Assembly: GCF_016894385.1 (NCBI RefSeq) | Contig: NZ_CP069811.1 | Coordinates: 2,022,501-2,086,500, forward strand | Length of the DNA stretch: 64,000 bases | Source of the DNA: Cupriavidus oxalaticus | Lineage (GTDB): Bacteria; Pseudomonadota; Gammaproteobacteria; Burkholderiales; Burkholderiaceae | Direction: 5' to 3' | Part shown: one piece after another, positions 13,173 to 28,612 of the stretch | Position numbering within the stretch: the first letter of the stretch is position 1 | Layout of the letters: every line of letters begins with the position of its first letter | Program-made: the position numbers and the translations under genes | Notes under the pieces: generated by a model | The model's database searches: none | What the model was told of the DNA's origin: nothing | What the model saw: the letters and a program-made list of their open reading frames with translations, nothing else

Positions 13173-13353
13173 CAAGGCCCCGAATGCGGGTTTCTACGAG
13201 TCAGTTGCAAAGCGGGCACGCGCGGGGCAGCCGCGGTGCCGTTGCACTAAGCGGTCCGTCGCCGCAGGCCGCCATTAGTTACCTATAAGTCTCTTGCAAA
13301 CGCGTTTCGTCTCATTTTTTTGTTCAATTCATTCCGTAAACCAAAACTTCTTA

Positions 13354-13382
13354 TTGACGTCAGCCGGTCTTCCGCCTACATT
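13354..13382 (+). promoter_or_regulatory. Sigma70-type promoter of xsc
   Basis: TTGACG (13354-13359) and TACATT (13377-13382) are separated by 17 bp. The same two elements with the same spacing and the shared text CTACATTTCG occur upstream of the APC permease gene at 23255-23283. The expected transcript starts near 13389 and has a leader of about 64 bases. Confidence 0.8.
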
Positions 13383-13403
13383 TCGACCATCGCATCAATT
13401 TTT

Positions 13404-13420
13404 CGGAACGTACTGTTCCA
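13404..13420. promoter_or_regulatory. IclR-type operator of xsc (GGAAC-N5-GTTCC)
   Basis: GGAAC at 13405-13409 and GTTCC at 13415-13419 form a perfect inverted repeat, set in TTTTTCGGAAC...GTTCCATTTT. It begins 28 bp after the start of the -10 element, in a position suited to repression. The APC permease promoter has the same palindrome at nearly the same offset (27 bp). The IclR gene at 22322-23188 is the likely reader. Confidence 0.75.
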
Positions 13421-13452
13421 TTTTATAACACCCCAACCAGGAGACACCCGCC

Positions 13453-15309
13453 ATGCGCGACCTCGAAACCACCAAGCAGCCCGCCGTTTCCGGTGGCTCG
13501 GCCGCAGCGAAAGACAGCCAGGTTCCGGCTGGCCCGCAGACCATGACCCCGTCCGAAGCCTTCGTCGAAACGATGGCCGCCAACGGCGTGACCGACATGT
13601 TCGGCATCATGGGCTCGGCCTTCATGGACGCCATGGACATCTTCGCCCCCGCCGGCATCCGCCTGATCCCGGTGGTGCACGAGCAAGGCGCCGGCCACAT
13701 GGCCGACGGCTATGCGCGCGTGTCGGGCCGCCACGGCGTGGTGATCGGCCAGAACGGCCCCGGCATCTCCAACTGCGTGACCTCCATCGCCGCCGCCTAC
13801 TGGGCCCACAGCCCGGTGGTGATCGTCACCCCCGAAGCCGGCACCATGGGCATCGGCCTGGGCGGCTTCCAGGAAGCCAACCAGCTGCCGATGTTCCAGG
13901 AGTTCACCAAGTACCAGGGCCACGTCACCAACCCGGCGCGCATGGCCGAGTTCACCGCGCGCTGCTTCGACCGCGCCAAGGCCGAAATGGGCCCGACGCA
14001 GCTGAACATCCCGCGCGACCACTTCTACGGCAAGATCACCGCCGAGATCCCGAAGCCGCAGAACCTCGATCGCGGCCCCGGCGGCGAGCAGAGCCTGAAC
14101 GAAGCCGCCGAGCTGCTGGCCAACGCCAAATTCCCGGTGATCATCTCGGGCGGCGGCGTGGTGATGGCCGATGCGATCGAGGAATGCAAGGCACTGGCCG
14201 AGCGCCTGGGCGCGCCGGTGGTCAACAGCTACCTGCACAACGACTCCTTCCCCGCCAGCCACCCGCTGTGGTGCGGCCCGCTGGGCTACCAGGGCTCCAA
14301 GGCGGCGATGAAGCTGATCTCGCGCGCCGACGTGGTGGTGGCACTGGGCTCGCGCCTGGGGCCGTTCGGCACGCTGCCGCAGCACGGCATGGACTACTGG
14401 CCGAAGAACGCCAAGATCATCCAGATCGATGCCGACCACAAGATGCTGGGCCTGGTGAAGAAGATCTCGGTGGGCATCTGCGGCGACGCCAAGGCTGCCG
14501 CCATCGCGCTGACCCAGCGCCTGGCCGGCCGCACGCTGGCCTGCGACGCCACCCGCGACGGCCGCGCCACCGACATCGCCAACGAGAAGGCTGCGTGGGA
14601 GAAGGAGCTGGACGACTGGACGCATGAGCGCGACCCGTACAGCCTGGACATGATCGAGGAGCAGAAGCAGGAGCGCACGCCCACCGGCGGCCACTACCTG
14701 CATCCGCGCCAGGTGCTGCGCGAGCTGGAAAAGGCCATGCCGGAAGATGTGATGGTCTCGACCGACATCGGCAACATCAACTCGGTGGCCAACAGCTACC
14801 TGCGCTTCGAGAAGCCGCGCAGCTTCTTTGCGGCGATGAGCTGGGGCAACTGCGGCTATGCCTTCCCGACCATCATCGGCGCCAAGGTCGCGGCGCCGCA
14901 TCGCCCGGCCGTGTCGTACGCCGGTGACGGCGCCTGGGGCATGAGCCTGATGGAAACCATGACCTGCGTGCGCCACAACATCCCGGTGACCGCGGTGGTG
15001 TTCCACAACCGCCAGTGGGGCGCGGAGAAGAAGAACCAGGTGGACTTCTACAACCGCCGCTTCGTCGCGGGCGAGCTCGACAACCAGAGCTTCGCCGAAA
15101 TCGCCAAGGCGATGGGCGCGGAAGGCATCGTGGTGGATCGCCTGGAAGACGTGGGCCCGGCCCTGAAGCGCGCCATCGACCTGCAGATGAATCATGGCAA
15201 GACCACGATCATCGAGATCATGTGCACGCGTGAACTGGGCGACCCGTTCCGCCGCGACGCGCTGGCCAAGCCGGTGCGTTACCTGGACAAGTACAAGGAC
15301 TACGTCTGA
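13453..15309 (+). CDS. xsc: Sulfoacetaldehyde acetyltransferase
   Basis: A 618-residue thiamine-diphosphate enzyme that converts sulfoacetaldehyde and phosphate to acetyl phosphate and sulfite. The Pyr domain has the catalytic Glu in VVHEQGAGHMADGYARV, the middle domain follows from about residue 215, and the PP domain has the ThDP motif GDGAWGMSLMETMTCVRHN. Blocks such as MGSAFMDAMDIFAPAGI, VNSYLHNDSFPASHPL and FHNRQWGAEKKNQVDF are characteristic of Xsc and separate it from acetolactate synthase. AGGAGACA precedes ATG 13453. It carries its own promoter and palindromic operator and is followed by pta and the sulfite exporter gene. The N-terminus is about 25 residues longer than the conserved TPSEAFVETM start. 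Confidence 0.97.
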   Translation: MRDLETTKQPAVSGGSAAAKDSQVPAGPQTMTPSEAFVETMAANGVTDMFGIMGSAFMDAMDIFAPAGIRLIPVVHEQGAGHMADGYARVSGRHGVVIGQNGPGISNCVTSIAAAYWAHSPVVIVTPEAGTMGIGLGGFQEANQLPMFQEFTKYQGHVTNPARMAEFTARCFDRAKAEMGPTQLNIPRDHFYGKITAEIPKPQNLDRGPGGEQSLNEAAELLANAKFPVIISGGGVVMADAIEECKALAERLGAPVVNSYLHNDSFPASHPLWCGPLGYQGSKAAMKLISRADVVVALGSRLGPFGTLPQHGMDYWPKNAKIIQIDADHKMLGLVKKISVGICGDAKAAAIALTQRLAGRTLACDATRDGRATDIANEKAAWEKELDDWTHERDPYSLDMIEEQKQERTPTGGHYLHPRQVLRELEKAMPEDVMVSTDIGNINSVANSYLRFEKPRSFFAAMSWGNCGYAFPTIIGAKVAAPHRPAVSYAGDGAWGMSLMETMTCVRHNIPVTAVVFHNRQWGAEKKNQVDFYNRRFVAGELDNQSFAEIAKAMGAEGIVVDRLEDVGPALKRAIDLQMNHGKTTIIEIMCTRELGDPFRRDALAKPVRYLDKYKDYV

Positions 15310-15342
15310 TCTAAGCCGCACCCTTTCGTTCTCGATTGGGTG

Positions 15343-15381
15343 CTCCCTCTCCCGCTTGCGGGAGAGGGTTGGGGTGAGGGC
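15343..15381. repeat. REP-like palindrome, copy 4 (left half of inverted pair)
   Basis: An 11-bp stem (15345-15355 with 15358-15368, loop TT) followed by a TTGGGGTGAGGGC tail. With copy 5 it repeats the arrangement of copies 1 and 2: stem, tail, about 45 bp, inverted tail, stem. Confidence 0.9.
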
Positions 15382-15426
15382 GGGAGCATCCACGGAGTGA
15401 AGCGCTGTCGTGCTTGCCACGCGCCT

Positions 15427-15470
15427 GCCCTCACCCCCCTGCCCCTCTCCCGCAAGCGGGAGAGGGGAGC
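15427..15470. repeat. REP-like palindrome, copy 5 (right half of inverted pair)
   Basis: A 12-bp stem (15442-15453 with 15456-15467, loop AA), preceded by GCCCTCACCCCCCT. It lies between xsc and pta, so it will be present in any read-through transcript. Confidence 0.9.
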
Positions 15471-15486
15471 CAACCACCAGCATGAC

Positions 15487-15506
15487 AAGGGCTTCGGCCC
15501 TTTTTT
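15487..15506 (+). terminator. Intrinsic terminator between xsc and pta
   Basis: AAGGGC-TTCG-GCCCTT forms a 6-bp stem with a stable UUCG tetraloop and runs directly into a T tract. It ends 22 bp upstream of the pta ATG, so it would limit or attenuate read-through from xsc. Confidence 0.75.
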
Positions 15507-15528
15507 CAGTTTCACCGAGCCAACCACC

Positions 15529-16560
15529 ATGAAACCCATCCTCCGCATCATCGACCGCGCCCGCGCCGCCCCCCGCCGCATCGTGCTGTGCGAGGCCGAA
15601 GACCCGCGCATCCTGCAGGCCGCGCAGCGTGCCACGCAGGAAGGCATCGCGCGCATCGTGCTGGCCGGCAACCCGCGCCAGATCAACGCGGCTGCCGCCA
15701 TCCACGGCATCGCGCTGGACGGCATCACGCTGGTCGATCCGGCCACCTCCGCGCTGACGCCCTCGTTCGCGCAACAGCTCTACGCATTGCGCCAGAAGAA
15801 AGGCATGACGCTGGACGAAGCCAGGCGCGCGGTGCTGGACCCGCTGTGCTTCGCCAACCTGATGGTGCGCCTCGGCCATGCGGACGGCTCGGTCGCGGGG
15901 GCGGAGCACACCACCGCTGACGTGGTGCGCAACGCGATCCAGCTGATCGGGCTGGCGCCCGGCTTCCGGCTGGTGTCGAGCTTTTTCCTGATGATGCTGT
16001 GCGAGCCCTTCCACACGCTCAAGGGCGGGCTGATCTTCTCTGACTGCGGGCTGGTGGTGAATCCCGATGCCGAAGAGCTGTCGGAGATCGCCATGGCCGC
16101 CGCCGACAGCGCACGTGCGCTGCTGAACGACGAGCCGCGCGTGGCGATGCTGTCGTTCTCCACCAGCGGCAGCGCGCACCACGCCGCCGTCGACAAGGTG
16201 GTGGCCGCGACCGAGCGCGTGCGCGCGCAGCGCCCCGGCCTGGCCATCGATGGCGACGTGCAGCTCGATGCCGCCATCGTCGCCGAGATCGCCGCGCGCA
16301 AGGTCGCGCATTCGCAGGTCAATGGCCGCGCCAACGTGCTGGTGTTCCCCAACCTGGAGTCCGGCAATATCGGCTACAAGCTGGCCGAGCGCGTCGGTGG
16401 CGCCAAGGCCATCGGACCGATGCTGCAGGGGCTGAGCAAGCCCGCCAACGACCTGTCGCGCGGCTGCAGCGCGGACGATGTGTTCCATGTCATCGCCGTC
16501 ACCGTGGTCCAGGCGCAAGCCTGCGCGGAACAGGCCGGCAAGGGCGAGCAGGCGGCATGA
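15529..16560 (+). CDS. pta: Phosphate acetyltransferase (short form)
   Basis: A 343-residue short-type Pta lacking the N-terminal DRTGG/AAA region of long enzymes. It converts the acetyl phosphate made by Xsc to acetyl-CoA. It begins RRIVLCEAEDPRILQAAQ, continues with NLMVRLGHADGSVAGAEHTTADV, and ends with the FPNLESGNIGYKLAERVGGAKAIGP block that contributes Ser/Arg/Asp residues of the active site. It follows xsc after 219 bp containing two repeats and a terminator, and overlaps the sulfite exporter gene by ATGA (16557-16560). Confusion with a phosphate butyryltransferase is possible in principle, but the xsc linkage argues for Pta. Confidence 0.95.
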   Translation: MKPILRIIDRARAAPRRIVLCEAEDPRILQAAQRATQEGIARIVLAGNPRQINAAAAIHGIALDGITLVDPATSALTPSFAQQLYALRQKKGMTLDEARRAVLDPLCFANLMVRLGHADGSVAGAEHTTADVVRNAIQLIGLAPGFRLVSSFFLMMLCEPFHTLKGGLIFSDCGLVVNPDAEELSEIAMAAADSARALLNDEPRVAMLSFSTSGSAHHAAVDKVVAATERVRAQRPGLAIDGDVQLDAAIVAEIAARKVAHSQVNGRANVLVFPNLESGNIGYKLAERVGGAKAIGPMLQGLSKPANDLSRGCSADDVFHVIAVTVVQAQACAEQAGKGEQAA

Positions 16561-17327
16561 AAGCGGAATTGTTGTTGCCGCTGCTGGGGCTGCAGGCCCT
16601 GCTCGGCGCGGGTACCTACTTCCAGACGGTGACCGGCTTCGGCCTGGGCATGATCGTGATGGGCGCCACCAGCGGGCTGGGCCTCGCGCCGGTGGCCACC
16701 GTGGCGGCCGTGGTCAGCCTGGTGACGCTGGCCAACAGCGCCTGCGCGCTGCCCGGCAAGTTCCAGCATATCGACTGGCGCGCCGTGGGCGCGGCCGCGA
16801 TCGGCATCCTGCCCTCCGTGCTGGTGGGCGTGCTGGTGCTGGAGTACCTGAGTTCCAGCGCCGCCACGCTGCTGCAACTGCTGCTGGGCGCGGTGATCCT
16901 GTACGGCGGCCTGAGCGCCGCGTTCAAACCCGACCCGCTGCCGCGGCGCTCCGGCGATGGCAGCTTCTTCATGAGCGGCGTGTTCGGCGGGCTGCTGAGC
17001 GGCATGTTCGGCGTGTCCGGGCCGCCGCTGATCTTCCAGTTCTACCGGCAGCCGATGAAGCCCGTGGAGATCCGCTGCGCGCTGATCCTGGTGTTCACCG
17101 TCACGTCCAGCGTGCGCACGCTGTTCTCGGCGTGGCAGGGCCAGCTCGATGGCGCAATCTGGCTGCAGGCGGCGCTCGGCGTGCCGGTGGTGGTGGCCGC
17201 CACGCTGCTGGGACGGCGCTTTCCGCCGCCGTTCTCGCCGGCCACGACGCGGCGGGTAGCGTTCGGGGTGTTGATCGGGATCGGGGTCAGCCTGATGCTG
17301 CCGGCGATTTCGGCGTGGGTGCGGTAG
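16557..17327 (+). CDS. tauE: TauE/SafE-family (TSUP) sulfite exporter
   Basis: A 256-residue inner-membrane protein with about eight hydrophobic segments in two similar halves. The N-terminal half shows TVTGFGLGMIVMGATSGLGLAP and the second half shows SGVFGGLLSGMFGVSGPPLIFQFY, the repeated G-rich motif of the TSUP family. The start overlaps the pta stop (ATGA), so the two are translationally coupled. Since Xsc releases sulfite, a sulfite (or sulfoacetate) exporter at this place fits family knowledge; substrate is by context. Confidence 0.88.
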   Translation: MKAELLLPLLGLQALLGAGTYFQTVTGFGLGMIVMGATSGLGLAPVATVAAVVSLVTLANSACALPGKFQHIDWRAVGAAAIGILPSVLVGVLVLEYLSSSAATLLQLLLGAVILYGGLSAAFKPDPLPRRSGDGSFFMSGVFGGLLSGMFGVSGPPLIFQFYRQPMKPVEIRCALILVFTVTSSVRTLFSAWQGQLDGAIWLQAALGVPVVVAATLLGRRFPPPFSPATTRRVAFGVLIGIGVSLMLPAISAWVR

Positions 17328-17337
17328 GGGCGCGGTA

Positions 17338-17356
17338 GGGGCGCCGGCGGCGCCCC
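17338..17356 (+). terminator. Strong hairpin after tauE
   Basis: GGGGCGCC-GGC-GGCGCCCC, an 8-bp stem with a 3-base loop, starts 10 bp after the tauE stop. There is no T tract, so it is either a weak terminator or an mRNA-end stabiliser for xsc-pta-tauE. Confidence 0.5.
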
Positions 17357-17481
17357 CTGCGCTTCGTGTCGACCGCTCCATGGGGATATCGCGGTGTCGT
17401 GGCAGCCGAAGGAGACTGTGCGGGCGTGATTGAGGGAGCGGCTGCTCGAGGCAGCTAACAGCGGCGGCTGCGGACAGGGGC

Positions 17482-18357
17482 CTACCGCTCCAATCCAAGT
17501 AGCGGCAGGAACTCCGCCCGAAACGCCTGCATCCTTGGATGCACCCGCCGCGGATCCATGCCGTCGCCAACGACTGCCTGGCGATCGCCGAACGCCATGT
17601 GGTCAAGCAATCGTTGAAAGACCCGCTCGTCCCCGAGTACCGTAACGATCTGCTTCGTCGCCGCTTCGGCCCCGCGAGCCAGCAACGCTGCTGCTGCGAT
17701 GTCGATATCGAAGTCGTATTTCTCCAGCAGGTCAGCCTCCTGTCCGAACAGGCGATCCTGGTTGCCGGCCGATTCATAGCTGCAGAGCAGGGTCAGCAGG
17801 TCGGTAGCGTCGCGCCGGTCGTCGCCATGGCGGTCATGCCACGCAAGGAGCTTGAGCATTGCCAGGCCCGGCAGCGATGCAAACGGAACGACGAGGCTGT
17901 CGTCAACAACAATGCGAATCGCCGCGTCAAAGGCTTGCCGGAATCCGGCAACGTTCATCACCGTGTCCATGGCCGGCGGCCACGCGATGCTGGCAGCGGG
18001 CTTCTCGATGTCGCCGAAGGGAATCAGGTCGAGAACCATCACCCGCTCCCCATCGCGGTGATAAGTCAGCTTGTGCGGGTTCTTGTCGACCGGCCTGAAC
18101 CGGCCCGCGGCAATCAGTTGCCGGCATAGCAACTCATGCTCCGCCCAGTCTGCAATGCAGATGCCGATGTCGATATCGTGCGTGCGCCGGCCCGGCTGGT
18201 TGCCGAAGACGTTTTCCAGGATGACCTGCCTGGCCGTCGCGCCGCCAATGAAGTAGCGGATGCCAAGCTGACTCGCGGCGGCGTCCAGATCGCCAAGCAG
18301 GGATCTGCTGTCAGCGTCGATCGGGCGTGTCGCCGGGAGTTCATGGACGATGGGCAA
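17482..18357 (-). CDS. AbiEii-like nucleotidyltransferase (type IV toxin-like)
   Basis: A 291-residue nucleotidyltransferase-fold protein. FIGGATARQVILENVFG followed by RRTHDIDIGI gives the GG...DxD core of the AbiEii/AbiGii toxin family; a third acidic position may be the Asp in VMVLDLIPFGD. The start is TTG 18357, which overlaps the 3' end of the upstream gene by 17 bp, the usual close coupling of such pairs. Together with that gene it looks like an AbiE-type toxin-antitoxin or phage-defence module. AbiEii-family toxins transfer nucleotides onto RNA targets such as tRNA; this has not been shown for this protein. Housekeeping nucleotidyltransferases are less likely given the partner. Confidence 0.78.
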   Translation of the reverse strand: MPIVHELPATRPIDADSRSLLGDLDAAASQLGIRYFIGGATARQVILENVFGNQPGRRTHDIDIGICIADWAEHELLCRQLIAAGRFRPVDKNPHKLTYHRDGERVMVLDLIPFGDIEKPAASIAWPPAMDTVMNVAGFRQAFDAAIRIVVDDSLVVPFASLPGLAMLKLLAWHDRHGDDRRDATDLLTLLCSYESAGNQDRLFGQEADLLEKYDFDIDIAAAALLARGAEAATKQIVTVLGDERVFQRLLDHMAFGDRQAVVGDGMDPRRVHPRMQAFRAEFLPLLGLER

Positions 18358-19390
18358 GGTATAGCTCTCTTATCTGCCGCGCAGCCTCGACATTGCGCGA
18401 TTCGCCGGTATCCAGCAGGTCGGCATACACCAGAATGGGATGCGCAACATCCGGTGTGCCAGTGGCGACAGTCTTGGATGAGGCGGGCCAGAAGCGCTGC
18501 ACGACTTCGACTTCGCCATCGGGATCCGCTTTCAGCCGCGCTTCGAGGAGAAGTTCGCGAGGGGTTGCCGAGGCCGCGTACAGCATGATGCGCTCGGCCC
18601 GCAGATGATGGGCGAGCTTTTCTGCGGCCGCCTCTCCACCCAAAACAGCATCGTGCCGGGCCAGGTCGATGGCCTGCCACCAGTCGGGCCGCGTCGCGGC
18701 AAATCGCCGTGACGCCAGTCGGGGCTTAAGGCGCAGCGGGTACAGCGCGGCCCATTCGTCGACCACGCGCTCCCAGTCGCTGAAACGGCGCCTGCCATCC
18801 GGGCCGACTGCCAGCAGGCCGCGGTGCTGCAAGTCATCCAGTGCCAGGTTGACCGTGCTCAGGGCAACGCCCGCCGCGCTGGCGATAGTGCGGTAAGGCG
18901 CGGCCGCCAAAGCGGGATCTGCGATCAGGGCGAACAAGACTTCCAGGTGTTTTGGGCTGGCGGTGCGCGCCCGCGGCTTCGGCACCCCGCGTTCCGGCGG
19001 CCGGCGGCCCACCACGTAGAGCAACGCGTCCGGCAAGCGCAGCGAAACGTTGCCTGCGGTATCGAGAAAGGCAATGTCGTTGCTACGCAGGCGCTCCGCC
19101 ATGTCCTGCGAGACATGCGAGGTAACCAGCAACAGCGTCTTCCCTACCCGATGCTGCAATTCGGCGATGCCGGAGACCGCGGAGAAGCGGTCGACCGAAT
19201 GCCTGGTCGCGACTGGCAAGATAACGGTCCGTCCCTGCCCCAGGTCGAAGCGCATCGCACCGTTCAGTGGGAGGCCGGCTGCGTCCGGCATTGGCGGGAC
19301 CGGCTCTGCGTGCATGGCGGTGGCGTCATGGAAGGCGTCGGCTGCCGCTTGCAGCAACGCATTGGCGTCAACGCGTGCTTTAGGATTCAC
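18341..19390 (-). CDS. AbiEi-like winged-helix regulator/antitoxin
   Basis: A 349-residue protein. A winged-helix segment lies near residues 165-200 (YRTIASAAGVALSTVNLALDDLQHRGLL). Other conserved parts are SDIAFLDTAGN-like RSNDIAFLDTAGNVSLRLPD and a C-terminal ERIMLYAASATPRELL...HPILVYADLLDTG, as in AbiEi-type antitoxins and related predicted regulators. The start is GTG 19390, with GGAATGAG upstream. The gene precedes and overlaps the AbiEii-like gene. Two perfect palindromes lie within 115 bp upstream, consistent with the autoregulation known for AbiEi antitoxins. Confidence 0.75.
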   Translation of the reverse strand: MNPKARVDANALLQAAADAFHDATAMHAEPVPPMPDAAGLPLNGAMRFDLGQGRTVILPVATRHSVDRFSAVSGIAELQHRVGKTLLLVTSHVSQDMAERLRSNDIAFLDTAGNVSLRLPDALLYVVGRRPPERGVPKPRARTASPKHLEVLFALIADPALAAAPYRTIASAAGVALSTVNLALDDLQHRGLLAVGPDGRRRFSDWERVVDEWAALYPLRLKPRLASRRFAATRPDWWQAIDLARHDAVLGGEAAAEKLAHHLRAERIMLYAASATPRELLLEARLKADPDGEVEVVQRFWPASSKTVATGTPDVAHPILVYADLLDTGESRNVEAARQIRELYLAHRP

Positions 19391-19414
19391 TTATATCTCA
19401 TTCCGGTGTGTATC

Positions 19415-19437
19415 GATGTACGCGTAACGCGTACATC
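19415..19437. promoter_or_regulatory. Palindromic operator 1 of the AbiE-like module
   Basis: A perfect 23-bp palindrome: arm GATGTACGCGT, central A, then the complementary arm. Its centre is 36 bp upstream of the AbiEi-like GTG start. The TGTACGCG half-sites recur in operator 2, with centres 69 bp apart. Confidence 0.8.
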
Positions 19438-19485
19438 CTCAGATAATCATACAGCACCGCATCGATTCGTACGGATTTTCTTTGA

Positions 19486-19504
19486 TGTACGCGTATCGCG
19501 TACA
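19486..19504. promoter_or_regulatory. Palindromic operator 2 of the AbiE-like module
   Basis: TGTACGCG-TAT-CGCGTACA, an 8+3+8 perfect inverted repeat using the same half-site as operator 1. It lies in the 141-bp AT-richer region between the CobT-like stop and the AbiEi-like start, near where the promoter should be. Confidence 0.8.
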
Positions 19505-19531
19505 GGCAAGAAATCAGACAAGGCGGCGGAC

Positions 19532-21253
19532 TCACCGCCGCCTCGCCCCCACCAACCCCGCCACCTCATCCAGCATCGCCATATCCACCGGCTGCGCCAG
19601 GTCCAGCGCCAGCGTGTGCCGGTAATACGGACTGAGATCCAGCCCCACCCCCAGCCCCAGCACCTCCACGTCACGCAACGCCTCATGCCGCGCCACGACG
19701 GCCTTGAGGTGGTTGTCGAGATAGCACGCATCGTTGGCCAGCCCGGTGGCGGTATCCATCGGGCTGCCGTCGGACACCACCAGCAGGATGCGGCGCGCCT
19801 TGCCGGTGGCGTGCAGGCGGGCGCACGCCCACTCGACGGCCTCGCCGTCCACGCCTTCGCGGAACAGGTCGGCCTTGAGCAAGGCGGTCATGTCGGTGCG
19901 CGCACGGCGCCAGCTGCGCGCGGCATCCTTGAATACCATGTGGCAGGTTTCGTTGAGCCGGCCAGGGTGCGCCGGCCGGCCGCGCGCGAGCCAGTCGGAG
20001 CGGGCGCGCCCGCCATTCCACGCATTGGTGGTGAAGCCCAGCACCTCGGTGGCCACGCCGGCCTGGTCGAGGGCCCGCGCGAGCAGGTCGAGCAGCAATG
20101 TCAGCGGCTCCGCGCGCGCCTTCATCGATCCCGAGCAGTCCACCAGGAAGCCCACCACGCAATCGGCATGCGCCTTGTACGCTTCGCGGCGGAACAGGCG
20201 CCGTTCGGCGGGCGAACTGACCAGCTGTGCCAGCCGGCGTCCGTCGATGCGGCCGCTTTCCTCGCCGAAGGACCAGCCGTCGACGCGCGGCTGCGCCAGC
20301 GCGGCGCGCAGCTTGCGGGCCAGCCGCGCCACGTTGACGCCGGCGCGGGCAATGCGCGCGTCGAGGCGCGTGCGGTATTCGTCGAGCAAGGCGCGGCGCA
20401 CCAGCGTGGCGGCGCGCACTTCGCGGTCGTAGCGGGTGGTGAAGATGCGGTAGCCGTCGGTGGCGTCGGCCAGCACGCGGCTGTGGCCGCTGTCGGCGAG
20501 CGCGAAGGCCTCGGCCGCCGGCTCGTCGAAATCGAGCCACAGCGCAAAGCCCGCGCGTGCCGATGAAACGGCGTTGTCGCCGTCCGCGCCGGCTTGCGGT
20601 GCTTCGCTGCGGACCATCTCCGCGACGGCACGTGCCAGCGCCAGCGCATGCACGGCAAACGCGGACTGGTCGTGGCGCTGCGCGCGCAGGCCGGCCAGCG
20701 CCGTGCCCAGCACCGGGACGATGGCGGCGCGTGTGGCCTCGATCAGGTCTTCGGTGTCTTCGAGCACCGGCTCGCCGCTCAGGCGCGACCACGCCACCTG
20801 CGCCACGGTATAGAGCAGGATGCCGAGATGGCCCTCGGTCAGCCCCGAGCGATGGAACGCGCGCGACCACGCCATGAAGCGGTGCCGCAGGTTGGCTGCC
20901 ACGCCGGCCATGCCGCGCGGCAGGTGGGTCTCGCAGCGCAGCTGCTCGAGCAGTTCGAAGAGCAGGCGTTCGACCGGATCGGCGGGGCAGAGGCTGCGGT
21001 GCAGCGCGGCATCGGAATGCGCCTGCCGCAGCGCGGCGCCGTCGGCGGCGCCGCGCAGGCAGGCAGCCGTGTCGGTGCCCGGATCGGTGCGCAGGTGCGG
21101 CGCATGCTGCGGCACCGGCCGCATCGCGCGCCATAGCTGGCCGTCGCGAAAATGCAGCGCCGCGTCGCCGGTCAGCGCGCGCACGGCGGCGCCGGAGAGT
21201 TCGTCCTGCCGCTGGCGCCGGCGCAGCTGCTGCGCTGCCGACGCCGCGGTCAT
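19532..21253 (-). CDS. cobT: CobT-like protein with C-terminal VWA domain
   Basis: A 573-residue protein of the aerobic cobaltochelatase CobT type. The C-terminal third is a von Willebrand A domain with the MIDAS motif DCSGSMKA near residue 380 and the later [11 protein letters not shown]. The N-terminal two thirds are helical and charged. In vitamin B12 synthesis CobS and CobT form the ATPase chaperone that helps CobN insert cobalt into hydrogenobyrinic acid diamide. Here ATG 21253 overlaps the stop of the CobS-like ATPase gene (ATGA), so the two are coupled, but no cobN lies nearby. A MoxR/VWA chaperone for another metalloenzyme is the alternative. Confidence 0.8.
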
Positions 21254-22263
21254 CGCGCGGACTCCGACGCGGCCGCAACCGCGGCGGGGTCGCCGGGCAG
21301 TTGCCCGAAGCAGCGCTGGTAATACTCCGCCACCACCGGCCGCTCGGCCTCGTCGCACTTGTTCAGGAAGGTCAGCCGGAACGCCAGGCCCGGATCGCGA
21401 AAGATCTGGCAGTTTTCGGCCCAGCTGATCACGGTGCGCGGCGACATCAGCGCCGACAGGTCGCCCGCCGCAAACCCGCGCCGCGTCAGCCCCGCCATGG
21501 CCACCATGGCGTCGACCAGCGCGCGGCCGGCGTCGTTGTCCAGCTCGGGCACGCGCGCGAGCACGATGCCCGCCTCTTCCTCATGCGGCAGGTAGTCCAG
21601 CGTGGCAACCACGTTCCAGCGGTCGATCTGCGCGTGGTTGAGCAGCTGGGTGCCGTGATAGAGCCCGTTGACGTTGCCGAGCCCCACGGTATTGGAGGTG
21701 GCGAACAGCCGGAACGACGGATGCGGCCGGATCACGCGGTTCTGGTCTAGCAGCGTGAACTTGCCGTCGCGTTCCAGGATGCGCTGGATCACGAACATCA
21801 CGTCGGGACGGCCCGCGTCGTATTCATCGAAGATCAGCGCCACCGGCCGCTGCAGCGCCCACGGCACGATGCCTTCCTGGAATTCGGTCACCTGGCGCCC
21901 GTCGCGCACGACGATGGCGTCCTTGCCGACCAGGTCGAGCCGGCTGATATGCCCGTCCAGGTTCACGCGCACGCACGGCCAGTTGAGCCGCGCCGCCACC
22001 TGCTCGATATGGGTCGACTTGCCGCTGCCATGCAGCCCCTGCACCATCACGCGCCGGTCGCGCATGAAGCCGGACAGGATCGCCAACGTCACCTCGGGCT
22101 GGAAGCGGTACGCCGGGTCAAGCCCCGGCACGTGGTCGTCGCGCTCGCTGAAGGCCGGCACCATCAGTCCGGAATCGATGCCGAACACCTCGCGCACCGG
22201 AATCATCCGGTCCGGCTTGCCATACTGCTCTTGCGTCACCTCATGCTCCTCGTTGGTCGCCAT
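21250..22263 (-). CDS. cobS: CobS-like AAA+ ATPase
   Basis: A 337-residue AAA+ ATPase, the normal length for CobS. It begins [20 protein letters not shown] and [17 protein letters not shown], as CobS does. Walker A is [10 protein letters not shown], Walker B is ALIFDEYD, and sensor 1 is [13 protein letters not shown] 22263 was chosen because upstream sequence in the same frame is low-complexity Arg/Lys and lies over the 3' end of the IclR gene region. It is followed by the overlapping CobT-like gene. It drives the cobaltochelatase ATPase cycle if a CobN partner exists elsewhere in the genome. Confidence 0.85.
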
Positions 22264-22321
22264 GCCTTTTGTCACCCTGGCACCGCGACCAGCGGAGCAA
22301 CTCCGCGTGACGCCGTGCGCG

Positions 22322-23188
22322 CTATTCGTCCTCTTCGGCGCTTTCCGCGCTTTCCCCGCTTTCCGCGCCTTCCGAGCCGCCTTGCCAGCTGCTGGCGCTT
22401 TCGGCCTCGATCGCCGCCAGCGCGCTGGCCGCGCGCTGCAGCGCGGGCAGCAGCTGCACCACCTTGTCGCGCGCCACGCGCATGACCGGGGCCTGCAGCG
22501 CCAGCCCGAGGTTCGACTTGCCGCCGTCGACGGCCGGCACCAGCACGCCGAAGCAGACCAGCCCGGGCAGGAATTCCTCGTCATCCAGCGCGTAGCCGTC
22601 GCGCTTCACGCGCTCCAGCTCCGCTTCCAGCTGCGCGGGGTCGGTCAGCGTGTTCTGCGTGTACCGCTCCAGCTCCGCGTGCGCCAGCAGCCGCTGCCGC
22701 TGCGCCGGCGCCAGCTGCGCCAGGAACAGCTTGCCGGTGGCCGAGCAGTGCGCCGGCACGCGCGAGCCCGGATGCAGGTAGAAGCGCAGCGGCGCCGCGG
22801 TTTCCACACGGTCCAGGTACAGCACCTCGCCGCCCGAAAACGCGGTCAGGTTGCAGCTCTCGCCCACTTCTTCCACCAGCCGCCGCAGCACCATGTGGCG
22901 CGCGCCGTGCGAGGTGCTGTTGAGCAACAGGTTCTCCGCCAGCCGGCGCAGCCGCAGGCCGGTGCCGTATTGCCGCCCGTCGCCGTTGCGCTGGATCAGC
23001 CCCGCCGCCTCGAGCTGCTGCAGCATGCGGTGCAGCGTGGGCTTGGGCAGGCCGGTCTCTTCCACCAGCGCCTGCAGGTTGAAGGACTGGTCCTTCTCCG
23101 CGATGACTTCGAGCAGGCCGAACAAACGCAGTGCCGGCGTGTCTCCGTCCGGCTTGGCGTCACTTTTGGCGAGGCGCATATCGTTCAT
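22322..23188 (-). CDS. IclR family regulator, likely of xsc and the permease
   Basis: A 288-residue IclR protein. The winged helix-turn-helix is at [37 protein letters not shown] (reported in pieces: recognition helix near KPTLHRML), and the effector domain runs through [25 protein letters not shown] to [12 protein letters not shown]. The C-terminus is a 20-residue acidic Ser/Glu/Ala tail not usual for the family. ATG 23188 has GGAG six bases upstream; ATG 23203 and 23200 lack a site. It is divergent from the APC permease gene, whose promoter carries GGAAC-N5-GTTCC, also present at xsc. Repression relieved by a taurine-pathway metabolite is the simplest model. Confidence 0.85.
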
Positions 23189-23254
23189 GCCTGGCTCCAT
23201 CATAGGTAAGTTTCATTTTCAGAGTCAAATCATATCAATTATCGAAACTTCTGG

Positions 23255-23283
23255 TTGACCTTCCGCCGGGGAGGGCCTACATT
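23255..23283 (+). promoter_or_regulatory. Sigma70-type promoter of the APC permease gene
   Basis: TTGACC (23255-23260) and TACATT (23278-23283) with 17-bp spacing, a near copy of the xsc promoter, including the shared GAAACTTCT/AAAACTTCT text before the -35. The leader to ATG 23522 is long (about 230 bases) and shows no gene. Confidence 0.8.
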
Positions 23284-23303
23284 TCGGTCAAACAATTATT
23301 TTT

Positions 23304-23320
23304 CGGAACAACTGGTTCCG
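23304..23320. promoter_or_regulatory. IclR-type operator of the APC permease gene
   Basis: CGGAAC-AACTG-GTTCCG is a perfect inverted repeat with 6-bp arms, set in TTTTTCGGAAC and followed by GATTTTT. It starts 27 bp after the -10 start, matching xsc. It is 116 bp from the IclR start codon and may also control that gene. Confidence 0.78.
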
Positions 23321-23521: not shown

Positions 23522-24958
23522 ATGATCCAACAACCACAGTCCGGCAACGGACTATCCCACGGCCTCAAGCAACGCCACATGACCATGATCGCGCTTGGCG
23601 GCGTGATCGGCGCCGGCCTGTTCGTCGGCAGCGGCGTCGTCATCAAGTCGGCCGGCCCCGGCGCGGTCCTTTCCTTCCTGATCACCGGCCTGCTGGTCGT
23701 GCTGGTCATGCGCATGCTGGGCGAGATGGCGTGCGCCCTGCCCGGCACGGGCGGCTTCTACGAGTATGCGCGCGAAGCCTGGCACGACCGCCCCGCGGTG
23801 GGCAACCTCGCCGGCTTCCTGACCGGCTGGATGTACTGGTATTTCTGGGTCATCGTGGTGGCGCTCGAAGCCGTCGCCGGCGCCGACCTGGTGCGCTACT
23901 GGCTGCCCGACGTGCCCAACTGGATCATCAGCCTGGTGCTGCTGGTGATGCTGACGCTGACCAACCTGGTGTCGGTCAAGTCGTTCGGCGAGTTCGAGTT
24001 CTGGTTCGCCTCGATCAAGGTCGCGGCAATCATCGTGTTCCTGTTCATCGCCGGCGTGTACGTGCTGGGCCTGGCTCCCGGCGCCCAGGGCATGCAGGTG
24101 GCCAACCTGACCGCCAACGGTGGCTTCATGCCGAACGGCATCGTGCCGGTGCTGACCGGCGCGGTCGCGGCCACCGGCTTCTACTTCGGCGCCGAGATCG
24201 TCACCATCGCCGCCGCCGAGACGGCAGAACCGCAGAAGGCCGTGGCCAAGGCCACCAGCTCGGTAATCACGCGCGTGCTGGTGTTCTATGTCGGCTCGAT
24301 CCTGCTGGTGGTATGCCTGGTGCCGTGGAACTCCAACAGCATCGCCACGCCGTACGTGAGCGCGCTGAACGTGATGGGCGTGCCCGCCGCCGCGCAGATC
24401 ATGAACGCGATCGTGCTGACCGCGGTGCTGTCGGCGCTCAACTCCGGCCTGTACGCTTCGTCGCGCATGCTGTTCGCGCTGACCCGCCGCGGCGATGCGC
24501 CGCAGTCGCTGGCCCGCGTCAGCCGCAAGGGCGTGCCGGTCCGCGCGATCCTGGTGGCCACGCTGTTCGGCTACGGCGCGGTGGTGATGTCTTATGTCTC
24601 GCCCGACACGGTGTTTGCCTTCCTGGTCAACTCGTATGGCACCGTCGCCATCTTCGTCTACATCCTGATCGCGATCTCGCAGCTGCGCCTGCGCTCGCGG
24701 CTGGAGCGCGAAGCGCCGGACCTGCTGCGCGTGCGCATGTGGTGCTTCCCGTATCTCACCTATGTCGCGATCCTGGGCATGCTCGGCATCGTGGTCGCCA
24801 TGGCCTTCATCCCCGACCAGCGCACGCCGCTTGCACTGGGAGTGATCAGCCTGCTGATCCTGCTGATTGCCTACGGCGCGCGGCAACTGTTTCGTCGCGG
24901 CGTGGAGCCGGTAGTACCGCTGGCAGAGATGCCAAGGCCCGACCTCCACAAGTATTGA
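23522..24958 (+). CDS. APC-superfamily amino acid permease, candidate taurine permease
   Basis: A 478-residue, 12-segment carrier of the GabP/AnsP branch. Helix 1 is GGVIGAGLFVGSGVVIKSAGPGA, with the unwound Gly-rich substrate site, and helix 6 is in TGFYFGAEIVTIAAAETAEPQ. Family members import amino acids such as GABA by proton symport. It has the same promoter and operator as xsc, lies beside TauR and TauXY, and taurine is a beta-amino sulfonate similar in size to GABA, so taurine uptake is likely (inference). AGGAGAC precedes ATG 23522. A strong hairpin follows the stop. Confidence 0.85.
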   Translation: MIQQPQSGNGLSHGLKQRHMTMIALGGVIGAGLFVGSGVVIKSAGPGAVLSFLITGLLVVLVMRMLGEMACALPGTGGFYEYAREAWHDRPAVGNLAGFLTGWMYWYFWVIVVALEAVAGADLVRYWLPDVPNWIISLVLLVMLTLTNLVSVKSFGEFEFWFASIKVAAIIVFLFIAGVYVLGLAPGAQGMQVANLTANGGFMPNGIVPVLTGAVAATGFYFGAEIVTIAAAETAEPQKAVAKATSSVITRVLVFYVGSILLVVCLVPWNSNSIATPYVSALNVMGVPAAAQIMNAIVLTAVLSALNSGLYASSRMLFALTRRGDAPQSLARVSRKGVPVRAILVATLFGYGAVVMSYVSPDTVFAFLVNSYGTVAIFVYILIAISQLRLRSRLEREAPDLLRVRMWCFPYLTYVAILGMLGIVVAMAFIPDQRTPLALGVISLLILLIAYGARQLFRRGVEPVVPLAEMPRPDLHKY

Positions 24959-25021: not shown

Positions 25022-26593
25022 ATGAGCCTCAAGTCTCCCGCCACCATGTGGTTCCAGCTGTTCCAGCAGCACGCGCTGTCCGGCCTGAGCCTGCAGGGCA
25101 AGATCCGCCAGATGCTGGTGTCGGCGATCCTCGACCAGCAGCTGCCGCAGGGCGAGCCGCTGCCAAGCAGCCGCGAACTGTCCGCGCAGCTGCGCGTGGC
25201 GCGCAACACCGTGGTGCTGGCGTACCAGCAGCTGGTCGATGAAGGCTACCTGGTGGCGCGCGAGCGCAGCGGCTATTTCGTCAATCCCGAGATCCTCGGC
25301 ACGCGCGTCAGCGGCGTGGCCTCGCTGCGCGGCGAGCCGGTGCCCGCGCGCGGCGGCGAACCGGACTGGGAGCGGCGCTTCGTGTTCCGCCCGACACAGC
25401 AGCGCAATATCGTCAAGCGCGCCAACTGGCGCGACTATCCCTACCCCTTCATCTACGGCCAGTACGACCCCGCGCTGTTCCCCACCGCCGACTGGCGCGA
25501 ATGCTGCCTGAAGGCGCTGAGCGTGCTCGACATCCACGACTGGGCCCAGGACATGATCCTGCGCGACGACGAGTCGCTGGTGCAGCAGATCCGCACGCGC
25601 GTGCTGCCGCGCCGCGGCGTCTGGGCCGGCGCCGACGAGATCGTGGTCACCGTGGGCGCGCAGCAGGCGCTGTACCTGCTGGCCGACCTGCTGGTCAGCC
25701 CCGATACGCCGGTCGGCATCGAAGACCCCGGCTATCCGGATGCGCGCAATATCTTCGGCTCGCATACCTCGCATCTGGTGCCGCTGCCGGTCGATGGCGA
25801 GGGGCTGGCACTGTCCGACGCGCAGCGCGCGTGCGACTACGTCTACGTCACGCCCAGCCACCAGTGCCCCACCACGGTCACCATGCCGCTGGCGCGCCGC
25901 CAGGCGCTGCTGCGCCAGGCCGAGGAAGCGGACTTCGTGCTGATCGAGGACGACTACGAAAGCGAGAGCCGCTTCGAGGGCGACCCCACGCCCACGCTCA
26001 AGAGCCTGGATCGCGGCAACCGCGTGATCTACGTGGGCAGCCTGTCCAAGAGCCTGGCGCCGGGGCTGCGCATCGGCTATGTGGTCGGTCCGGCGCCGCT
26101 GATTGCCGAGCTGCGCGCGGCGCGGCGGCTGATGCTGCGGCACCCGTCGGCGTATATCCAGCGCGCGTTCTCGCTGTTCCTGTCACTGGGCCACTACGAC
26201 GCGCACCTGCGGCGCCTGTCGGCCGCGCACCGCGAGCGCGCCGAGGCGGTGCTCGCCGCACTGGCCACGCATATGCCCGACTTCCGCCCGGTACCGATCG
26301 CCGGCGGCGCGTCATGCTGGATCGAAGGGCCGTCCTGGCTCGACGCCGACGCGCTGACGCGCCTGGCCGAGCTGCAGGGCGTGCTGATCGAGCCCGGCAG
26401 CGTCTTCTTCATGGCCGAGCCGGCGCCGCGCAACGTGTTCCGGCTCGGCTACTCGTCGATCTCGCTGGACCGTATCGAGCCCGGCATCCGTGTGCTGGCG
26501 GATGTCGCGCGTGAACTGCAGGCCACCGCCGGGGCGGCTGGCGCGGCCGCAGCAGACGCCACCGTCACTTCCCGCGCCCGCCCGGCCGCCTGA
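25022..26593 (+). CDS. tauR: TauR, MocR-type GntR/aminotransferase regulator
   Basis: A 523-residue fusion of an N-terminal GntR winged helix (about residues 20-85: PSSRELSAQLRVARNTVVLAYQQL, given here by its core ELSAQLRVARNTVV) and a C-terminal fold-type I aminotransferase domain with the PLP Lys in VGSLSKSLAPGLRIGY. TauR of this family activates taurine catabolism in Rhodobacter, binding CTGG-containing direct repeats. Here the gene directly precedes tauXY, and paired CTGG repeats lie just after its stop and again upstream of tauA. ATG 25022 has no clear ribosome site. Other MocR regulators (PdxR, GabR) are possible, but the neighbours favour TauR. Confidence 0.88.
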   Translation: MSLKSPATMWFQLFQQHALSGLSLQGKIRQMLVSAILDQQLPQGEPLPSSRELSAQLRVARNTVVLAYQQLVDEGYLVARERSGYFVNPEILGTRVSGVASLRGEPVPARGGEPDWERRFVFRPTQQRNIVKRANWRDYPYPFIYGQYDPALFPTADWRECCLKALSVLDIHDWAQDMILRDDESLVQQIRTRVLPRRGVWAGADEIVVTVGAQQALYLLADLLVSPDTPVGIEDPGYPDARNIFGSHTSHLVPLPVDGEGLALSDAQRACDYVYVTPSHQCPTTVTMPLARRQALLRQAEEADFVLIEDDYESESRFEGDPTPTLKSLDRGNRVIYVGSLSKSLAPGLRIGYVVGPAPLIAELRAARRLMLRHPSAYIQRAFSLFLSLGHYDAHLRRLSAAHRERAEAVLAALATHMPDFRPVPIAGGASCWIEGPSWLDADALTRLAELQGVLIEPGSVFFMAEPAPRNVFRLGYSSISLDRIEPGIRVLADVARELQATAGAAGAAAADATVTSRARPAA

Positions 26594-26736: not shown

Positions 26737-27153
26737 ATGTCCGATCGCAACACCGCCGCCGGCATCGAACTGCTGCAAGCCTTCAACGACGCCTGGAACC
26801 GCCACGACCTCGAGGCCCTGATGGGCTTCATGGCCGACGACTGCGCCTTCCACGGCGTGGCCGGCAGCGAACTGCTCGGCCGCAGCTTCATCGGCCGCGA
26901 CGCCGTGCGCGAAGGCTTCCAGCTCGCCTGGCAGACCTTCCCCGACGCGCAATGGGTCGATGGCGAGCACTTTGTCGTGGGCGACCGCGGCGTCAGCGAA
27001 TCCACCTTCAAGGGCACCCGCGCCGACGGGGCCCGCATCGAGGCGCGCATGGTCGACGTCTTCACCTTCCGCGACGGCAAGATCGCGGTGAAGAACGCCT
27101 ACCGCAAGGACCGCCCGCCCGTGGTGGCGCCCGTGGTTGCCGCGCAAGCCTGA
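26737..27153 (+). CDS. tauX: Taurine dehydrogenase small subunit (SnoaL/NTF2-like)
   Basis: A 138-residue SnoaL-like protein (FNDAWNRHDLEALMGFMADDC, FIGRDAVREGFQLAWQTFPD, VDVFTFRDGKIAVKNAYRK). By itself the fold does not define a function. Its position, 16 bp before the FAD oxidoreductase gene, behind a TauR-box promoter and next to tauR, matches the small subunit TauX of membrane-linked taurine dehydrogenase TauXY. AGGAG at 26724 precedes ATG 26737. The role of the small subunit is not well defined; it may stabilise or localise TauY. Confidence 0.78.
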   Translation: MSDRNTAAGIELLQAFNDAWNRHDLEALMGFMADDCAFHGVAGSELLGRSFIGRDAVREGFQLAWQTFPDAQWVDGEHFVVGDRGVSESTFKGTRADGARIEARMVDVFTFRDGKIAVKNAYRKDRPPVVAPVVAAQA

Positions 27154-27169: not shown

Positions 27170-28612
27170 ATGGAAGCCGTAGTCCCCCGCAGTGCCCTGG
27201 GCGGCGAGCACACGACCGCGCCGTCGCGTCCGTACGACCCCGCCTACGACCCGCTGCATACCCCCACCCCCGGCCAGGGCCGCGAGTACGCCCCCACCTA
27301 CTGGATCGGCACCGCCGGCACGCCGCCCGCCGACGACGGCCCGATCACGCATGACATCGACGTCGACGTGGCCATCATCGGCTCCGGCTTCACCGGCCTG
27401 ACCTGCGCGATCTTCCTGGCGCAGCAGTACGGCATCAAGGCCACCGTGCTCGAAGCCAACCGCGTCAGCTGGGGCTGCAGCACGCGCAACGGCGGCCAGG
27501 CGCAATGCGCGTCGGGGCGGCTCAAGCGTTCGCAGTGGATCCAGCGCTACGGGCTCGATACCGCGCTGCGCCTGCATGAAGAAGTCTGCGACGGCATGGA
27601 AACCTTCAAGGGCCTGATCAAGGACATCGACTGCGACCCGCAGCCGGGTGGGCACCTATACATCGCGCACCGCGACAAGGTGATGCCCGGGCTGGAGAAA
27701 GAAGCGAAGATCCTGCGCGAGGTGTTCAACTACGACGCGCGCATCCTCGACGCCGACACCGTGCGGCGCGAATACGTCGACGACAAGGAAGCCTGCGGGG
27801 CGATGCACGAGCCCGAAGGCATCGGCATCCACGCCGGCAAGCTGGCCTTCGGCTACCTGCGCCGCGCGCGCGAGCTGGGCGCCAAGGTGCATCCGTCCAG
27901 CCCCGTGACCGGCTGGGAAACGCGCAACGGCGTCCACTACCTGCGCACCCCCGGCGGCATCGTGCGCGCCCGCGCGGTGGGCGTGGCCACCGGCGGCTAC
28001 ACCTCGCAGTCGCTGCACCGCGAGCTCAAGAACCGGCTGTTCCCGATCCTGTCGAACTCGATCGTCACGCGCCCGCTGACCCCCGACGAAATCGCCGCGT
28101 GCAACTTCCGCACCACGCAGGTCATCACCGACACGCGCATCCTGCGCCACTACTACCGGCTGATGCCCGACGGCCGCCTGCAGATCGGCAGCCGCAGCGC
28201 CATTACCGGCAACGACGCGCCGCAGGACCAGTACAAGCAGAAGCTGATCGCCGACATGTACCGCAAGTTCCCGGCGCTGCGCGGCATCCAGATCGACTAC
28301 TCATGGTGGGGCTGGGTCGACGTGAGCCACGACATGATGCCGCGCATCACGCAGCCAGACCCGTCGCAATCGATCTACTACGCGATGGGCTATGGCGGCA
28401 ACGGCGTGATGTACTCCGCGCAGGCGGGCAAGCGGCTGGCGGCGCTGATCGCCGGCAAGGAATCGTCGCTGCCGGAGCTGCCGATCTTCCGCTCGCCGCT
28501 GCCGTTCCCGAACGTGCGCGAGATGGTGGAGTCGCAGATGTTCGCGCCGTTCCGGCGGATGGGGCAGCGGGTGCTGTATCACTGGTATCACTGGAAGGAT
28601 GATGTGTTTTGA
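27170..28612 (+). CDS. tauY: Taurine dehydrogenase large subunit (FAD-dependent DAO family)
   Basis: A 480-residue FAD enzyme of the DAO/glycine oxidase family. The dinucleotide motif is VDVAIIGSGFTGLTCAIFLAQ, starting near residue 65, followed by EANRVSWGCSTRNGGQ, and the C-terminal FAD contact is YYAMGYGGNGVMYSAQAGK. The 60-residue N-terminal extension before the Rossmann fold is typical of this subgroup, which also includes gamma-glutamylputrescine oxidases. It should deaminate taurine to sulfoacetaldehyde and ammonia, passing electrons to the respiratory chain (cytochrome c in Paracoccus). AGGAGAC precedes ATG 27170. Putrescine-type oxidase is the alternative; tauR/tauX context favours TauY. 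Confidence 0.85.
   Translation: MEAVVPRSALGGEHTTAPSRPYDPAYDPLHTPTPGQGREYAPTYWIGTAGTPPADDGPITHDIDVDVAIIGSGFTGLTCAIFLAQQYGIKATVLEANRVSWGCSTRNGGQAQCASGRLKRSQWIQRYGLDTALRLHEEVCDGMETFKGLIKDIDCDPQPGGHLYIAHRDKVMPGLEKEAKILREVFNYDARILDADTVRREYVDDKEACGAMHEPEGIGIHAGKLAFGYLRRARELGAKVHPSSPVTGWETRNGVHYLRTPGGIVRARAVGVATGGYTSQSLHRELKNRLFPILSNSIVTRPLTPDEIAACNFRTTQVITDTRILRHYYRLMPDGRLQIGSRSAITGNDAPQDQYKQKLIADMYRKFPALRGIQIDYSWWGWVDVSHDMMPRITQPDPSQSIYYAMGYGGNGVMYSAQAGKRLAALIAGKESSLPELPIFRSPLPFPNVREMVESQMFAPFRRMGQRVLYHWYHWKDDVF

Follow-up and report, generated by a model that had tools for sequence, protein, structure and literature searches.

Taurine genes and the promoter elements of xsc and the permease gene

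The window, by which we mean the whole 64-kb stretch of DNA analysed here, contains one taurine cluster, consisting of xsc-pta-tauE, iclR with cobS/cobT-like genes, and permease-mocR-tauX-tauY, into which an AbiE-like pair is inserted. The genes are as follows:

13453..15309, + strand: xsc, sulfoacetaldehyde acetyltransferase (equivalog profile TIGR03457, 1081.1 bits against a cut-off of 676.4)
15343..16560, + strand: pta, phosphate acetyltransferase, true start probably further in (PF01515; TIGR00651 above its cut-off)
16557..17327, + strand: tauE-like sulfite exporter (PF01925)
17482..19390: AbiE-like pair, interrupting the cluster
19532..21358, - strand: CobT-like VWA protein, start uncertain (PF11775, PF06213; under the NCBIfam CobT cut-off)
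21250..22263, - strand: CobS-like AAA+ protein (PF12556, PF07728; under the NCBIfam CobS cut-off, scanned with an N-terminal extension)
22322..23203, - strand: iclR, candidate regulator, with a possible ATG at 23188 (PF01614 and PF09339 over gathering scores; tree clade)
23522..24958, + strand: GABA-permease-type amino-acid permease, probably for taurine uptake (PF00324; GABA permease profile 552.2 bits, under the cut-off of 678.1)
25022..26593, + strand: MocR-type regulator, TauR-like by neighbourhood only (GntR and aminotransferase domains; NCBIfam PdxR passed, 357.6 against a cut-off of 320)
26737..27153, + strand: SnoaL-like protein, probable TauX (PF12680)
27170..28612, + strand: FAD oxidoreductase, probable TauY (PF01266; start taken as the ATG at about 27170, although the open frame extends back to 27137)

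The probable identity of TauY is based on its neighbourhood and on a 95% homologue (P0002) that is named putative taurine dehydrogenase large subunit. An earlier note on this DNA had described the genes between xsc and the permease gene as unrelated; this holds only for the AbiE-like pair, since the rest form a single taurine cluster. The common membership of xsc and the permease gene in this taurine-degradation cluster accounts for the likeness of their promoters, in which the following elements were found:

13354..13382, + strand: xsc promoter, TTGAC(G)-17 bp-TACATT (consensus only; TTGAC 13354-13358, TACATT 13377-13382)
13405..13419: O2 of the xsc promoter, putative operator GGAAC-GTACT-GTTCC (centre near +23, start site estimated)
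23255..23283, + strand: permease promoter, TTGAC(C)-17 bp-TACATT (consensus only; TTGAC 23255-23259, TACATT 23278-23283)
23305..23319: O2 of the permease promoter, putative operator GGAAC-AACTG-GTTCC (centre near +22)

Both promoters carry TTGAC, a 17-bp spacer and TACATTTCG, followed by the palindrome GGAAC-N5-GTTCC, and the -35, -10 and palindrome described in the earlier note were found again at the same coordinates and with the same spacings. Measured from the start of the -10 element, GGAAC begins after 28 bp in the xsc promoter and 27 bp in the permease promoter, and the longer sequence TTTTTCGGAAC after 22 and 21 bp, respectively. Furthermore, AAACTTCT lies directly 5' of the -35 element in both. 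The bare palindrome is weak evidence when taken alone, because its five matches in the window (with up to one mismatch; 1.37 expected) were also reached in two of 100 shuffles. A search of the 6.69-Mb genome for TACATTTCG-N(5-25)-CGGAAC returned only the xsc and permease places. Within the 64-kb window, only the xsc and permease O2 sites, both of which belong to the training set of the position matrix, score 13 or more.

A wider regulon in this genome was sought with less specific patterns and with the matrix, the matrix scan covering the 64-kb window and selected loci rather than the whole genome. The degenerate pattern led to three further places, none of them strong or paired by the matrix, and the exact pattern to two (L001 and L005) among the matches listed, neither strong nor paired. 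At least seven further copies of the exact GGAAC-N5-GTTCC without the preceding C occur in the genome; L021, the one examined, is neither strong nor paired when scored with the matrix. The sole scored further place outside long frames (L203) has a score of 1.3.

That one promoter was recently duplicated, and that this alone explains the likeness without any palindrome-specific regulator, seems extremely improbable. Such an origin would fit a similarity that spans the -35, the -10 and the operator, and also a permease leader in which a ribosome-binding-site-like stretch and an ATG stand at nearly the same distance as in xsc. However, the bases between the elements have diverged in the two promoters while the elements themselves stay identical, and the same promoter and operator elements recur in several Pseudomonadota families and in Rhodococcus. 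Remnants of xsc were looked for in the permease leader and none were found.

The IclR protein as candidate regulator

The window IclR belongs to the IclR family (PF09339, 46.8 bits against a cut-off of 22; PF01614, 120.6 bits against 24), and lies under the NCBIfam cut-offs for PcaR/PcaU (133.4 versus 284.75), E. coli IclR (118.8 versus 380) and BhcR of P. denitrificans, its best NCBIfam profile (151.6, far below 350). IclR proteins more than 60% identical to it were found in six of 398 genomes of the phylum, and all six are among the 27 that have xsc. A site with a matrix score of at least 14 precedes xsc in seven of seven loci, namely the six with such an IclR and G002, whose IclR proteins are only 42–46% identical. 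By comparison, none of 21 control xsc loci without a close IclR has such a site (best score 10.2), although this set also differs by lineage, because its Xsc proteins are only 45–48% identical to the window Xsc. Among 13 clade A loci that were fetched in addition, 12 likewise have the site upstream of iclR, versus two of 16 loci of 38–46% paralogues; of the clade A loci, L215 has no site, L218 came without upstream sequence, the L212 site was in the training set, and the L205 site is identical to the (trained) window permease site. Strong sites in 1.58 Mb of sequence numbered 143, and 127 of them lie before xsc, iclR, tauX, permease, pta or tauA. Directly divergent iclR-xsc pairs are present in 10 of the 80 xsc loci, including those of Azoarcus, Halomonas, Cobetia and Rhodococcus opacus. 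Burkholderia-type genomes have the site together with IclR proteins of other clades (38–48%), G292 has a 51–52% IclR beside xsc and lacks the site, and G506 has a 52% IclR and lacks xsc. A related palindrome, GAGAC-N5-GTCTC, is present in several of the control xsc loci.

This comparison, whose counts are not independent because the species are related, supports the proposals of the earlier note that the palindrome marks a regulon with the IclR protein as the best candidate, the site tracking the IclR clade, and that this protein has a role in taurine/sulfoacetaldehyde metabolism. We put the probability that the window IclR is the cognate factor of the xsc and permease promoters at about 0.82, judging from sequence comparison, and it would most likely be a SauR-related regulator of taurine dissimilation. 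A literature search that covered few subscription journals found no paper in which taurine or xsc is linked to a protein of the IclR family, so the neighbouring iclR may have been mentioned before.

In the tree, the window IclR falls in a clade of 19 rows that is separate from SauR (support 100/99). The sister clade (support 89/77) is that of SauR of Cupriavidus necator H16, which we take to be a member of the IclR family. SauR of C. necator is described as a sulfoacetate-responsive activator (PMC7057948). Both proteins concern C2 sulfonates that meet at sulfoacetaldehyde; SauR differs in its target genes and in a sauR-sauS region without GGAAC-N5-GTTCC. Moreover, the window iclR adjoins the permease and cobS/cobT-like genes rather than sauS, which together with its separate clade places it outside SauR proper. 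The nearest paralogue in this genome (C2, 43% identity) is SauR-like and adjoins sauS, and has a similar recognition helix, so it might be thought to bind the xsc and permease sites itself. This we regard as highly improbable: the 13-kb sauR-sauS region contains no site scoring above 2.2, and three Cupriavidus loci with 42–43% SauR-like proteins (L224-L226) have no site either. SauR was rejected as the owner of the sites for lack of any in its own sauR-sauS region.

Taurine is an abundant organosulfonate, and the control of its breakdown in bacteria has been explained through TauR. TauR, of the MocR family and unrelated to IclR proteins, activates taurine genes; its regulons contain the same pathway genes as here, and those predicted in betaproteobacteria are said to resemble the alphaproteobacterial ones (PMC5320631). 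With a mocR gene inside the cluster, the palindrome could belong to the MocR/TauR-like protein (25022-26593) while the IclR does something else, a reading that we consider very unlikely. Published TauR sites are CTGGACYTAA direct repeats; the best match to one such box in either promoter region has three mismatches, and no pair of boxes with up to four mismatches in total occurs in the window. In addition, relatives of the window MocR protein (E<=1e-60) are absent from five of 17 genomes that keep the sites. TauR was rejected as site owner on box mismatch and co-occurrence, and the same two results partly uphold the statement of the earlier note that the regulon is distinct from TauR control. 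That statement is weakened by the position of mocR inside the putative permease operon, because of which layered control with MocR is possible.

Paired putative operators and a predicted switch

The earlier note had taken one operator per promoter as the whole site, and missed a degenerate second copy about 83–84 bp upstream of each O2:

13321..13335: xsc promoter, O1, a degenerate copy of the putative operator centred near -61 (best match to the O2 matrix on the upstream side, at a distance of 84 bp; shuffle p=0.03)
23222..23236: permease promoter, O1, a weak copy likewise centred near -61 and lying 19 bp from the start of iclR (best upstream match, offset 83; shuffle p=0.28)

The matrix was trained without any O1 copy, whereas the O2 scores are partly circular because some of the scored sites had served in training. 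In a shuffle test of 30 promoters (the two in the window plus 28 chosen among 80 loci, with each genus represented by one or several), a second copy was found at an offset of 80–86 bp in 26, with p<0.05 in 21. Each row was scored with a matrix trained without rows of its own genus label, except that other Cupriavidus rows stayed in training when the window rows were scored and that two Azoarcus rows bore different genus labels. Counted over 78 of the 80 xsc loci (L127 and L130 are too short), the best site and its best partner are 78–86 bp apart in 66 xsc promoters versus two of 21 controls, and 12 of the 78 lack a partner at this distance; the chance level of 10% is 9/91 offsets and is not derived from shuffles. 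The promoter is therefore flanked by a pair of sites, one near -61 and the other near +23.

We predict that the window IclR binds paired palindromes near GRWAC-N5-GTWCC flanking each target promoter, O1 and O2 lying about 82 bp, or some eight helical turns, apart. It would control two units, xsc-pta-tauE and permease-mocR-tauX-tauY, which together would cover the pathway from uptake through to acetyl-CoA and the export of sulfite, and probably also iclR-cobS-cobT, through the O1 that abuts iclR. With no inducer, an IclR tetramer would bridge O1 and O2 and keep the promoter closed; when a pathway intermediate, most likely sulfoacetaldehyde, is bound, O2 would be released, and O1, which lies where activators commonly bind, would then support transcription. 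Bridging and sulfoacetaldehyde as inducer are, taken jointly, a tentative proposal, quite possible but short of probable. Among known family members, E. coli IclR is a tetramer or a dimer depending on its ligand, and BhcR may both activate and repress (PMC11323563). Transfer of the effector from E. coli IclR by residue was rejected; only Asp212 of its oxygen-contacting residues is kept in the window IclR, and SauR has Asn, not Asp, at this position.

If the main reading is true, a second regulator, unrelated to TauR and with a defined paired operator, would explain how many beta- and gammaproteobacteria control xsc, and taurine regulons would become predictable from sequence. It would also add to SauR another sensor of C2 sulfonates, and link a chaperone pair of the CobS/CobT-like kind with the taurine pathway. 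A more speculative and doubtful extension is that this clade, separate from SauR and acting independently of TauR, represents an old taurine switch of many beta- and gammaproteobacteria and of Rhodococcus, which bridges two operators about 82 bp apart around the promoter, senses sulfoacetaldehyde, and drives, together with iclR, an orphan AAA+/VWA pair (CobS/CobT-like) whose function would be the maturation or reactivation of Xsc or of taurine dehydrogenase.

Simple repression, in which IclR would sit at O2 only as a roadblock while O1 autoregulates iclR without bridging, is a serious contender, though an unlikely one. It agrees with O2 being the stronger copy in most promoters, and with O1 abutting the iclR start both in this genome and in directly divergent iclR-xsc loci. 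However, O1 persists even in loci where iclR and xsc are not neighbours, within the same narrow spacing of 78–86 bp, which autoregulation does not need.

Shared promoter and operator in the window

The promoters of xsc (sulfoacetaldehyde acetyltransferase, 13453-15309, plus strand) and of the permease gene (23522-24958, plus strand) are built as the earlier note described: TTGAC, a 17-bp spacer, TACATTTCG and then the palindrome TTTTTCGGAAC-N5-GTTCC (O2), with GGAAC placed 28 bp (xsc) or 27 bp (permease) downstream of the first base of the -10 element. They also share AAACTTCT directly 5' of TTGAC. The bare palindrome, with up to one mismatch, is too common to count alone, because it has five matches in the window versus 1.37 expected. 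The combination of -10 element and palindrome, which the note took to define a regulon, occurs just twice in the 6.69-Mb assembly by genome-wide pattern search, and a position matrix (score of at least 13) finds only the same two sites within the window. Exact CGGAAC-N5-GTTCC falls in four distinct places of the genome among the matches listed; the other two are within long reading frames, score 11.1 and have no partner site.

The permease leader also holds a three-codon open frame, Met-Asp-Gly-stop (23354-23365), preceded by a GGAGAC stretch. The same frame is found in loci L041 and L057, and L043 has Met-Tyr-Gly-stop; the stop codons differ. It is either a leader peptide or the relic of an old gene start.

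Genes of the taurine cluster

Profiles and neighbourhoods contradict the earlier view that the genes between xsc and the permease gene are unrelated. The genes xsc (TIGR03457), pta and that of a TauE-like exporter form one run; 3' of iclR (22322-23203, minus strand), on the same strand, lie a CobS-like AAA+ gene and a CobT-like VWA gene; and 3' of the permease gene, with short gaps, follow the genes of a MocR protein, a SnoaL-like protein and an FAD oxidoreductase. Since the oxidoreductase has a 95% homologue annotated as putative taurine dehydrogenase large subunit, the SnoaL-like protein and the oxidoreductase are probably TauX and TauY, the presumed subunits of that enzyme. The MocR protein exceeds the NCBIfam PdxR cut-off (357.6 versus 320), and its "TauR-like" label is based on neighbouring genes.

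17482-19390, AbiEii/AbiEi-like type IV toxin-antitoxin pair, flanked by tauE and the cobT-like gene
19532-22263, minus strand, CobS/CobT-like AAA+/VWA pair

In Cupriavidus laharis (L057) the blocks of the cluster are adjacent without the insertion, and the AbiE-like pair is missing from the corresponding place; within the cluster, only this pair looks foreign. Of 80 xsc loci, 65 have the cobS/cobT-like pair close by. Six genomes were checked for CobN, and four of them (two Vibrio-like, Shewanella and Janthinobacterium) have the CobS-like gene without it, so that the CobS-like protein in these four cannot be an ordinary cobaltochelatase; the pair may serve in maturation or reactivation of Xsc or taurine dehydrogenase.

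The candidate regulator that accompanies the site

In a tree of 45 IclR proteins, the window protein belongs to a clade of 19 (support 100/99) from Zoogloeaceae, Oxalobacteraceae, Halomonadaceae, Vibrionaceae, Shewanellaceae and Rhodococcus. The sister group of this clade, weakly supported (89/77), consists of SauR-like proteins. Another two IclR clades found near xsc come mainly from Burkholderia, Caballeronia, Pandoraea and their kin.

Scanning 150 family genomes for TTTCGGAAC-N5-GTTCC matched 12, counting the own genome, and 12 of the 17 places adjoin genes of the taurine cluster, related species entering such counts many times over. Among 398 phylum genomes, the profile finds xsc in 27, seven of them close, and the six with an IclR protein >60% identical to the window protein all belong to those seven. 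The xsc promoters of these seven genomes all score at least 14 (palindrome mismatches 0-1 in five, two in two Vibrio-like genomes). None of 21 xsc loci that lack a close IclR protein does so, the best control reaching 10.2; lineage is a confounder in this comparison, because the control Xsc proteins are just 45-48% identical to that of the window. GAGAC-N5-GTCTC, or a sequence near it, was seen as a related palindrome in the xsc promoters of controls L164-L166, L172, L174, L177 and L178, which are distant proteobacteria without the IclR clade of the window.

The iclR and xsc genes are directly divergent in 10 of 80 loci, including those of Azoarcus, Halomonas, Cobetia and Rhodococcus opacus. 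For 21 loci without a flanking IclR gene, 19 genomes have one elsewhere (E<=1e-45), 14 of these in clade A, that of the window protein. The site lies upstream of iclR in 12 of the 13 clade A loci (of 14) having upstream sequence; at loci of paralogues (38-46% identity) it was found in two of 16. A relative of the MocR protein (E<=1e-60) was not found in five of 17 genomes keeping the sites, nor was the published TauR box (PMC5320631) found in the xsc or permease promoter.

Burkholderia-type genomes have the same site and IclR proteins of other clades. The proteobacterium G292 (L147, L162) has a 51-52% identical IclR gene divergent from xsc and no GGAAC-N5-GTTCC palindrome at that locus; iclR and xsc may therefore have been paired before this operator sequence arose. 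Genome G506 has a 52% IclR protein and no xsc. In Caballeronia/Pandoraea loci L064, L065, L068, L072 and L074, two IclR genes lie near each other and near xsc. They belong to the two further clades, and the single operator copies preceding many of them suggest autoregulation or a two-protein system.

Paired operators, proposed switch and ligand

Promoters of many genera aligned on the palindrome revealed a half-conserved copy (O1) 5' of the -35 element. With a search matrix built from the downstream sites alone, the best upstream match lies 80-86 bp from O2 in 26 of 30 promoters and has p<0.05 against shuffles in 21.

13321-13335, upstream copy in the xsc promoter, p=0.03
23222-23236, upstream copy in the permease promoter, weak, p=0.28

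The distance from best site to best partner is 78-86 bp in 66 of 78 usable loci (around 10% expected), and such a partner exists in six of seven phylum loci versus two of 21 controls. With transcription assumed to start about seven bases past the -10 element, the two sites are centred near -61 and at about +22 to +23. The neighbourhoods, 1.58 Mb in all, contain 143 strong sites, a count to which a paired promoter may contribute two; 127 of them lie upstream of xsc, iclR, tauX, permease, pta or tauA. What the sequences show is confined to the sites with their pairing and distribution, and to the genes.

The best reading of the paired operators is a two-site switch, for which binding, bridging, ligand and sign of control are taken by analogy from the IclR family; simple repression by the IclR protein at O2 is plausible but less likely. 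Without inducer, an IclR tetramer would hold O1 and O2 on either side of the promoter. As inducer, an intermediate that the targets share would loosen O2; the simplest candidate is sulfoacetaldehyde, which Xsc consumes and TauXY presumably produces. O1, remaining at a position usual for activators, would then aid RNA polymerase.

Of the glyoxylate- or pyruvate-contacting residues of E. coli IclR listed in PMC11323563, Asp212 is kept in 28 of 28 sequences of the window clade. Position 160 is Ala in 25 and Ser in 3, and all 28 have Ala at 239 and Gln at 241. The changes at 160, 239 and 241 argue for a ligand other than glyoxylate or pyruvate.

The closest paralogue in the own genome (43% identity) lies next to the gene of SauS, an acylating sulfoacetaldehyde dehydrogenase (696.6 bits versus a cut-off of 600). 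SauR of C. necator H16 has been validated by others as a sulfoacetate-responsive activator (PMC7057948). The sauR-sauS gap on chromosome 2 of the own genome (L032 2244-2423) contains GGGACGCCATGGCGTCCC and the similar GGGACGGCATGCCTGTCC, possibly a SauR site with wider spacing, and a transposase-like frame adjoins sauR.
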